Source: Aldrovandia affinis (taxonomy: Eukaryota > Chordata > Actinopteri > Notacanthiformes > Halosauridae). Taken from it: 64,000 nt of DNA. The stretch is from positions 1,315,145-1,379,144 of the forward strand of contig JAINUG010000147.1 of NCBI GenBank assembly GCA_029706075.1, in the 5' to 3' direction. Numbering within the stretch: position 1 is the first letter of the stretch; each line of letters begins with the position of its first letter. Both the position numbers and the translations under genes were made by a program. The notes under the pieces are model-generated. The model was not told the DNA's origin, did not search any database, and saw only the letters and a program-made list of their open reading frames with translations. Positions 42,101 to 45,100 of the stretch are shown here, one piece after another.

Positions 42101-45100
42101 TTAGGTTGACTCTAGAGTTGAGTATTTGATCATCTATGATTCAGCATCTGATTAGCCAACTCAAATATGTGCTCATAACCTGCTAGAACTGTAAAATAGG
42201 CATGGATATTGCAGTTGCGTGCTACATGATATCAGGAAGAGACTACCATCCCATTTACACTGTCTATATACCCTGGTGGGCTGTACACAATGATGTAGTT
42301 TCTGTGTTAAATCCCATTGAAAGCCCAGTTCCACTGAATGCCTCCAGTCCCACATGATTTCACATGGGGTTTAAATTCCCCGTTTGGTATTATGAATGAT
42401 CTTGGCCCACCTCCTGTACTTTATGTGGACACTTTCCGTTCTGTTAGCTTGGATTCATATTTTTTACCAGCTTGCTTAACCAATGAGGGGACATTCTAAT
42501 AATGTTATTTTTTTCCTTTACAGATCAGAAAAAATATGATCGATGGACAGACAGGAGATCGCCGGATAGACACGCTGGTGAAATCTCAGGACGAGGTGAG
42601 TGTGGAACAATAATATACGTTTTAATTGCTGTTCATTCAGGGATGTTGAATTTTGTGTCAAAATTGTATGTGCCTCAGTACGTTATTTGTTGAGATCATG
42701 GATTCGTAAAAGAAAATGCTGAACTACACAAATTTATAAGCTACAATCAAGGAGAAAGCACTGTGTTTTTGAAGAGCCACTGATAAGCCTTATAGTGGAG
42801 CCTACCGGGTGGTCTAGCGGTTACAACGTTCGACGCTGGCCACCGTGACCGGGGTTGGATTCCACCGGCCGCGCCAGTATCGGCTCTGGCCAGGAGTGCC
42901 ACTAGGGGGCGGTAATTGGCTGTCCGCCCCAGGGAGGGGGGAGGGAAGCCTACATTAGCTCGCTGCATATAGGAGTGATTCTGTGGCCGGAGTGACAGTC
43001 GATGGCTTGGTGAGTGCTGGCTTGGTGGAGGCGGTACATCGCCTTTGTCACTGCCGGTCTCAGGGCTATGGCAGCGAACTCACAATACGAGGGGGGGTAT
43101 TGACATGAAAAGAGAGGGTGTAATTGGCTACTAATAGAAAATGAGAAAAAATCTGAAACAGAATCTTAAAAAAAAAAAAAAAAAAAAGTTTAAAAAAAGT
43201 GGCTCAGTAAGTTTTTTGCTGAGATCATGGATTCATAAAAGAAAATGCTGAACTACACAAATTCATAAGCTACAATCAAGGCAAAAACACAGTGTTTTTG
43301 AAGAGCCACCCTGATAAGCCTTATAGTGCAGTCCTGATCACGTAGCACTCATCCAGGCCTCAGCATACTCATAGGGCGTGAATATATTTTTATATATTTA
43401 TTTATTTCTATAGCACCTTTCCAGCAATACAGCACAAAGTGCTTCACAAAAAAGTTAAAGGGATTAAAATAAAAGACAAACAAGAATATAAAAATAATAA
43501 TATATAGTATAATATATAGTATATCATATATATAAGTATAATTTATATATATGAATATAGAATGCATGCAGCAAGCTGTGCATTTGGTCCTTGGATTAGC
43601 AGCTTAGAAAATTGCTTCAAAGCAAATCGCTTTAATATGAAACGATATTGGTGCATTCTTTATTTGTGTGTTGTGTGTTATTTGGCAGCGGTACATCGAC
43701 AGAGGCACCCGGACTTACACCTGGGCCCCTGTCAATGGGACAGACTACAGGTAACCACAGGAAGTGCCGGTGTAGAATTGCAGGAATTTAACGCAGATAC
43801 AAAACAACCAGTGATGTTCTCCAACATGTCTCCACCGTGTCACTCCCAACATTACTGTAACTCTGCATTACTTAAACTCATAGTTCTGTTGATTGAAGCT
43901 GACGCTTTAGACATTTTCACAAAGTGTGTTACACCAGCACACACACGCTTTGAGAACTGTGCTTATGAAGCCTACTTGTGATTTTGTCCTTTTGCATACC
44001 GGTTTATTTGAATGTCCAAAGGTGCAGGAAATGTTTTGATTTAAACGTGTTGATCGAGAGTACTCACAGCATATTCTGCAGCCTGTAGCCAATTATACAC
44101 TGTAGGGTGCTGCATGTCTGTGAATAGGCCCATTTAGATTTACTATTGCATTGTGCTTTGAAGAGGCTTTCCTATCAACTTTCGGCATAGCACAGTTGCC
44201 AGTCTGAGATACAAGGTGTCAAGGTGTATGAACATGGCATATTTGACCAGTAGGGGTCACTCTGTCCACCACAAATGGGTAGAACACATGCATTTGCTGC
44301 TCTTTGCAGTTACTCTCTGTAGCACTGTTGTGTTCACTGGGTGTAGTGCAGAAAGATATCAGAATGACCTTAATGCACATTCATCCTTACTTCACTCCAG
44401 GTCTTTCTCTGAAGTCTCTTACCAAATGTTTGTGTCTTAAGTTAGTCCCCATTTCTCATTGGGTTTTAAACACAGTGGACATGTTCTATCTATACCAGTA
44501 TGTCAGTTGGACTCTTACGTTAGCTGAAACTGCTCACTTGAAGCAGTTTAAAAAATGAAGGCATTTTACTGGCATTTTCATTTTATAATATGTAACCAAG
44601 TAGGAGATTGAAAGGGTTAAAGTGAAGAGTGAGTCAGTAAGGGTCTTTCTCAAGTCTAGGATTCCTGGACAGTGGAGTGCAACACTGCTGACAATGTTCC
44701 CTGGACCCAGTGGCATATTTCCGTGCAAACGTATTGGCCAGAAGGATTGTTTCCAAAGGCCGATTTCATCCACTGCATTTGCTTAGTATTGCCAAAGCAC
44801 GTACTACAGTAAAACCAAAAAGCACAAATAAAACTTACTTACAGTGGTCTGTCGATCATATTCTGATTGACACACCTAAAGGCCAATGTCCTTTGGTCAC
44901 AGATGAAATTATGTATTCCAGCTCTTGAGCAACACAGATGTTTGTACATAAATGAACCTCCCGGAAGCACTAAAATAGCAGTTAAAATATGAAATATAAA
45001 ATAACTAGACTGTGCAGTGTAGTGATGGGAGTGTGTTGAAAATCTATTTGTTCTGTATTTTCATGTGTCAGTTTTGTGTTTTTCTTGGGAGGTCATTTTA

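Follow-up and report, generated by a model that had tools for sequence, protein, structure and literature searches.

How did a SINE come to stand exactly between two direct repeats of some 130 bp? The locus lies in a stretch of 64,000 nucleotides of the Aldrovandia affinis genome (contig JAINUG010000147.1), referred to below as the window. Upstream of the repeats is an exon at 42524..42595 and downstream is the next exon at 43689..43750, both on the forward strand and each recognized by its translation and by a PDB match. When the two exons are joined, the translation matches the alpha-2/delta-1 chains in the PDB with an E value of 7e-17. The repeats and the SINE are located within an intron of this CACNA2D1-like gene (voltage-gated calcium channel alpha-2/delta-1).

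The left copy of the duplicated unit occupies 42670..42797 (128 bp) and the right copy 43199..43328 (130 bp); both are on the forward strand, start with GTG, and end with ATAGTG. They differ at 10 of 128 aligned columns, i.e., 92.2% identity (118/128), and by one 2-bp indel, so that the alignment confirms the position, the lengths of 128–130 bp, and the roughly 92% identity reported in a sequence-only reading of this DNA. Searched against the window, the two copies match each other with an E value of 5e-48, while the next best match of either flank has an E value of 0.006. When the 400 bp around each copy are aligned locally, the match begins at 42670/43199 and stops at G-N-A-G (42800/43331), its final strictly matching run ending at 42797/43328. 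The repeats were also said to share their end points and to be flush with the SINE head and its A-rich end, and the alignment indeed stops there. Flank homology past these ends, which the same reading had singled out as telling against it, was looked for in this alignment and is absent; beyond the repeats, one side is taken up by the SINE and the other by unrelated intron sequence. At the right edge, the A-rich tail passes into GTGGCTCAG at 43199. The direct repeat is flush with both ends of the SINE, as expected of a giant target-site duplication.

The insert is a full-length SINE of 370 bp, putatively of the tRNA type (42798..43167, forward strand; labeled “S-B” in the sequence-only reading), delimited by genomic matches and a head consensus. 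It is followed on the same strand by an A-rich tail of 31 bp (43168..43198) that consists of A20, GTTT, and A7. Sister copies are also A-tailed. The focal SINE carries the A-rich 3′ tail that characterizes L1-type target-primed insertion. The 37-base consensus head has 132 exact copies in the genome, and first-look searches returned 6282 candidate SINE copies in one case and 4910 in another. The focal SINE matches the genomic family consensus over its full length; relative to a consensus of 39 copies, it has mismatches at 6.6% of all aligned sites and at 4.6% of non-CpG sites, gaps not being counted. The family consensus contains GGTTCGATTCC, a candidate for the A and B boxes of a tRNA-type promoter. 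At the focal copy, a tRNA is called by neither Rfam nor ARAGORN. Four diverged partial matches to the SINE occur elsewhere in the window. Those at 13391-13711, 48644-48709, and 55286-55505 have in common a central block around GGCTGTCCGC, while the match at 31686-31739 covers only the 3′ part of the focal SINE. Their sequences suggest related, older SINE subfamilies.

The left junction requires a closer definition of where the SINE begins. The 39 other genomic matches listed start at query bases 123-145, mostly at base 131, which corresponds to 42800. In 81 copies with a GCC head, a G is found at position −1 in 69 and at position −2 in 44; the SINE tends to begin with G or GG 5′ of the GCC head. 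Because sister copies have this 5′ G run, the “GA” at 42798-42799 is read as SINE, leaving the left repeat flush; judged by these sequences, it probably represents the 5′ G run of the SINE rather than the end of the left repeat. The motif AGTGG is present directly 3′ of the SINE tail and just 5′ of the SINE, with one A in between, and the last G of the 5′ motif may belong to the SINE.

Sister copies provide the measure of an ordinary insertion in this family. A total of 112 loci were taken, of which two (L041 and L042) were the focal locus again and 18 had no passing copy; two further hits were removed for a short flank or duplication, leaving 93 copies with the focal SINE counted. The sample is skewed toward copies resembling the focal SINE (39 best matches) and toward those with intact 37-base heads (70 of the 132 taken). 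For each copy, only the best local alignment between the 600 bp on each side was examined. A score of at least 9 marks the top ~1% of random flank pairs in a smaller test, a threshold that was not recalibrated for the wider search. Duplications reaching this score are present in 41 of the 93 copies; 40 are 9-20 bp long and one, of 55 bp, lies in a minisatellite, and a few are hardly more than A runs. The remaining 52 copies, among them the focal one with a score of 5, fall below 9.

On the basis of 39 of these 41 duplications, the nick-site profile resembles that of L1: T or C, then AAAA. The strict left boundary of the focal duplication, GTAT|GTGCC, does not resemble a TTC/T|AAAA site: scored as an L1-like nick site, it is matched or surpassed by a fraction of 0.75 of random places, and only 1 of the 39 ordinary insertions is as poor. 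The focal insertion thus shares with ordinary L1-type insertions, as seen in the sister copies and in the parts of a human Alu survey drawn on here (PMC2912911), a full-length SINE, an A-rich tail, and extra 5′ nucleotides, but differs from them in a duplication of 128 bp rather than mostly 9-20 bp and in a strict left boundary without a TT|AAAA-like site. A good nick site, TGTC|AAAATT, is found at 42660, 10 bp to the left of the unit (0.049 and 0.011 in two scorings), although 16% of random 15-bp stretches contain an equally good one. Use of this site would require a later loss of ~6 bp from the right copy, whose left edge may once have been TC|AAAATTGTATGTG. A hidden ordinary nick 9-20 bp inside the right end, with target sequence copied before the jump to RNA, was also considered and rejected, as the best candidate sites score no better than expected by chance (AT-matched P values of 0.48 and 0.26, combined 0.38).

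Whether the unit was itself unique target DNA was addressed by a genome search covering 1.22 Gb in 2576 contigs, which passes over simple repeats and very common words. The right copy yields two matches at E values up to 1, both at the focal locus; the search gave no sign of a third copy, a second allele, or a paralogue. Within its scope, the duplicated stretch is otherwise unique, as a giant target-site duplication predicts. A 23-base core of the unit has no exact match in the viral_contigs and genome_contigs collections, which comprise viruses and prokaryotes and carry little weight here. The presence of only two genomic copies argues against an LTR or TRIM, a MITE, a satellite, a dispersed repeat, or a multicopy RNA gene. 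The right copy does harbor a 7-bp inverted pair, GTGGCTC...GAGCCAC, and its best fold contains two hairpins, features that would be compatible with repeats that are copies of something mobile or functional (the LTR of a miniature element, a MITE, or an H/ACA-like small RNA gene), between or with which the SINE arose. However, the unit is found just twice, both times at this locus, the folds are not clearly better than those of shuffled sequences (z of −0.96 for the right copy and +1.71 for the left), and neither copy has an Rfam match even at E values up to 10; such an origin is scarcely credible. Specifically, an H/ACA-type RNA gene was rejected given that 36 of 200 shuffles fold as well as the right copy, the left copy is outdone by most of its shuffles, and Rfam is negative, while an LTR/TRIM or a MITE was dismissed after further genomic copies were looked for and none were found.

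The ages of the SINE and of the duplication can also be compared. Of the non-CpG, non-diagnostic positions in the focal SINE, 13 of 281 depart from the family consensus (4.6%, s.e. 1.25%). When its 15 nearest relatives supply the consensus, the count is 15 of 300 non-CpG sites (5.0%). Half of the divergence between the flanks amounts to 3.9% (10/128 halved), or 3.2% without CpG changes. The gap between the two ages is 0.4 s.e., or 0.8 s.e. when flank CpG changes are left out; the duplication is, if anything, younger than the SINE, with a difference that is within error. The two ages agree, as a single event predicts, albeit with wide errors. The flank value has an upper 95% bound of 6.2%, and the test therefore also allows a tandem duplication somewhat older than the SINE.

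Such a preceding tandem duplication is the principal rival explanation. In this scenario, GTG microhomology duplicates a 127-bp unit (GTG-unit-GTG-unit-GTG), and the SINE subsequently enters the junction CTTATAGTGGCTCAG with a short duplication, (A)GTG(G). It accounts for the GTG that both starts and ends the unit, as might be expected of a tandem duplication made by microhomology; a giant duplication explains the same coincidence only by chance (~1 in 64). The AGTGG on both sides of the SINE likewise resembles an ordinary short duplication, yet its score of 5 is near the chance level (null median of 4, 90th percentile of 6), and the implied length of 3-5 bp is below the 9-20 bp of 40 of the 41 duplications scoring at least 9, a set in which duplications this short cannot appear. 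The junction is also a poor nick site, with 0.53 of random places being as good and 2 of 39 ordinary sites being as bad. Since the ages agree, the insertion must in addition have come soon after the duplication.

The SINE would further have had to land within a few bp of the junction. The 343 kb comprising the window and the fetched loci contain 18 adjacent direct-repeat pairs, arrays included and two of them at one place, of which 5 are gap-free. The estimated chance of a SINE landing at a tandem junction is hence 5e-4 per insertion on the basis of the 18 pairs, or 0.9e-4 on the basis of the 5. Random landings within a pair of 2 x 130 bp would be flush in ~3% of cases, and among flanking repeats longer than 50 bp, a flush share of ~3-7% is what insertion at random within tandem pairs would predict. 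The sequence-only reading had called a SINE at a pre-existing tandem junction the less economical explanation, and the low landing chance (0.9e-4 to 5e-4) agrees with that judgment; this order of events is unlikely, though well short of negligible.

These estimates can be set against published rates of long duplications. According to the portions of the reports considered here, LINE machinery does produce duplications of >100 bp, more rarely than those of 5-20 bp (PMC5223499, PMC2666801). For L1 in HeLa cells, duplications of >100 bp never exceed 10% of inserts, while in three NER-deficient lines they are present in 4/7, 21/23, and 22/28 inserts (PMC5223499, in part). In wild-type DT40 cells, the zebrafish LINE ZfL2-2 gave a long duplication, of 1228 bp, in 1 of 25 inserts, as given in the section used of PMC2666801. 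Human mobile-element insertions mostly have duplications of 10-20 bp in the excerpt consulted of PMC12350158, and the available part of an Alu/L1 survey gathered solely those of 5-30 bp (PMC2912911). When the published long-duplication rates are compared with the junction-landing estimate, the prior probably favors a giant duplication, though not by an overwhelming margin.

Flush ends, the lack of a third copy, agreeing ages, and the low chance of landing at a junction together favor a giant target-site duplication, in which one retroposition inserted the SINE and duplicated ~128 bp of its target. The sequence-only reading had put this forward as a question, and its proposal is partly supported; against the simplest form of it are a left edge that is not L1-like and the GTG at both ends of the unit. 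Judged from the arrangement of the sequences, this is the likely origin of the locus. By analogy with LINE biology, a break in the bottom strand, at the unit's left edge, would serve the LINE machinery as the site for priming reverse transcription of the SINE RNA. With the top strand opened ~128 bp further to the right instead of the usual 9-20 bp, fill-in on both sides would leave one copy of the stretch at each flank of the SINE, making duplication and insertion one event. The two breaks may have come from a host nick some way off, from a gap left during repair or replication, or from breakage independent of the endonuclease.

The strict left boundary GTAT|GTGCC, which scores like random sequence, counts against a giant duplication in its standard form. 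Given this atypical edge, a break that was host-made or independent of the endonuclease is a reasonable variant, in which the SINE would have inserted without the usual endonuclease cut at pre-existing opposite-strand breaks ~128 bp apart, the retroposition itself making a small tandem duplication. This more specific proposal is tentative and, if true, the insertion would be a vertebrate germ-line fossil of a long-duplication pathway measured so far in cultured cells. A further alternative dispenses with the LINE endonuclease in a different manner: SINE cDNA would be captured while a break or replication error made the tandem duplication. The left boundary atypical for the SINE family, the GTG at both unit ends, and the agreement between SINE and flank ages are all compatible with such a coupled event. 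In contrast, a full-length SINE with a long A tail is what target-primed insertion produces, and the product would be indistinguishable from a giant target-site duplication on the present data. A coupled event of this type is very improbable.

Long flanking repeats are not a habit of the family, a possibility that the sequence-only reading had proposed to check. A flush repeat of >40 bp is the best flank match in 2 of the 92 other copies surveyed (L089 and L101), and neither is a clean long duplication; with 0 of 92 clean cases, the event is rare in the focal SINE family. In L089 (G000:C1169:511100-513100), the SINE at 986-1338, on the reverse strand, borders a degenerate minisatellite array with periods of 33, 81, 111, and 144 bp (TRF). 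Its 107-bp flush flanking repeat stems from the minisatellite, and L089 was thus discarded as a long target-site duplication. In L101 (G000:C1435:507600-510000), the SINE is flush between 51/53-bp repeats at 1001-1053 and 1449-1499, and a minisatellite begins directly after the right repeat. The left repeat lies within a dispersed repeat, for which 40 matches were scored of 133 candidates, most spanning approximately query bases 1-57 of 71. L101 was therefore rejected as a second clean long duplication even though its age agreed, because its left copy belongs to the dispersed repeat, and a Fisher value of 0.007 for atypical left boundaries in the focal copy and L101 was withdrawn, L101 not being clean.

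Pre-existing repeats can mimic a long duplication, as L089 and L101 demonstrate, and the mimicry is easy: both of the other candidates among the 92 copies involve repeats present elsewhere. To this extent they lend plausibility to a tandem pair preceding the focal insertion, L089 as a sister SINE at the edge of a tandem array and L101 as a flush repeat involving a pre-existing dispersed repeat. A long flush direct repeat is common to these two loci and the focal one. However, the repeated sequences of L089 and L101 also occur elsewhere, whereas no third copy of the focal unit was found.

The closest known counterparts of a giant duplication are the long target-site duplications (L-TSD, >20 bp) of LINEs, in which an element likewise lies between long direct target duplications (parts of PMC5223499 and PMC2666801). 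As far as the same extracts go, those assays follow marked LINEs as they newly insert in cultured cells, while the SINE at the focal locus entered an animal genome long ago; it is full length and has an atypical left boundary. The locus is probably a natural example of this known outcome. Through long target-site duplications, retrotransposons are connected with small segmental duplications, and the published duplications of >100 bp were measured in cultured, partly repair-deficient cells (PMC5223499 and PMC2666801, both in part). With a datable germ-line case from a vertebrate intron, it would be clear that such duplications arise and persist in nature; counting them across the genome would give their rate. 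Among the open-licence PMC papers covered here, no natural SINE with a unique duplication of >100 bp was seen, which is no proof that none is in print.

The window also contains other elements of retrotransposon type. Six UnaL2-type LINE 3′ ends (Rfam RF00436) are located at 1107-1161, 27515-27568, 29577-29630, 39142-39195, 57483-57536, and 58292-58345. Two tRNA-like Rfam matches, at 4116-4173 and 58363-58420, are probably SINE heads.
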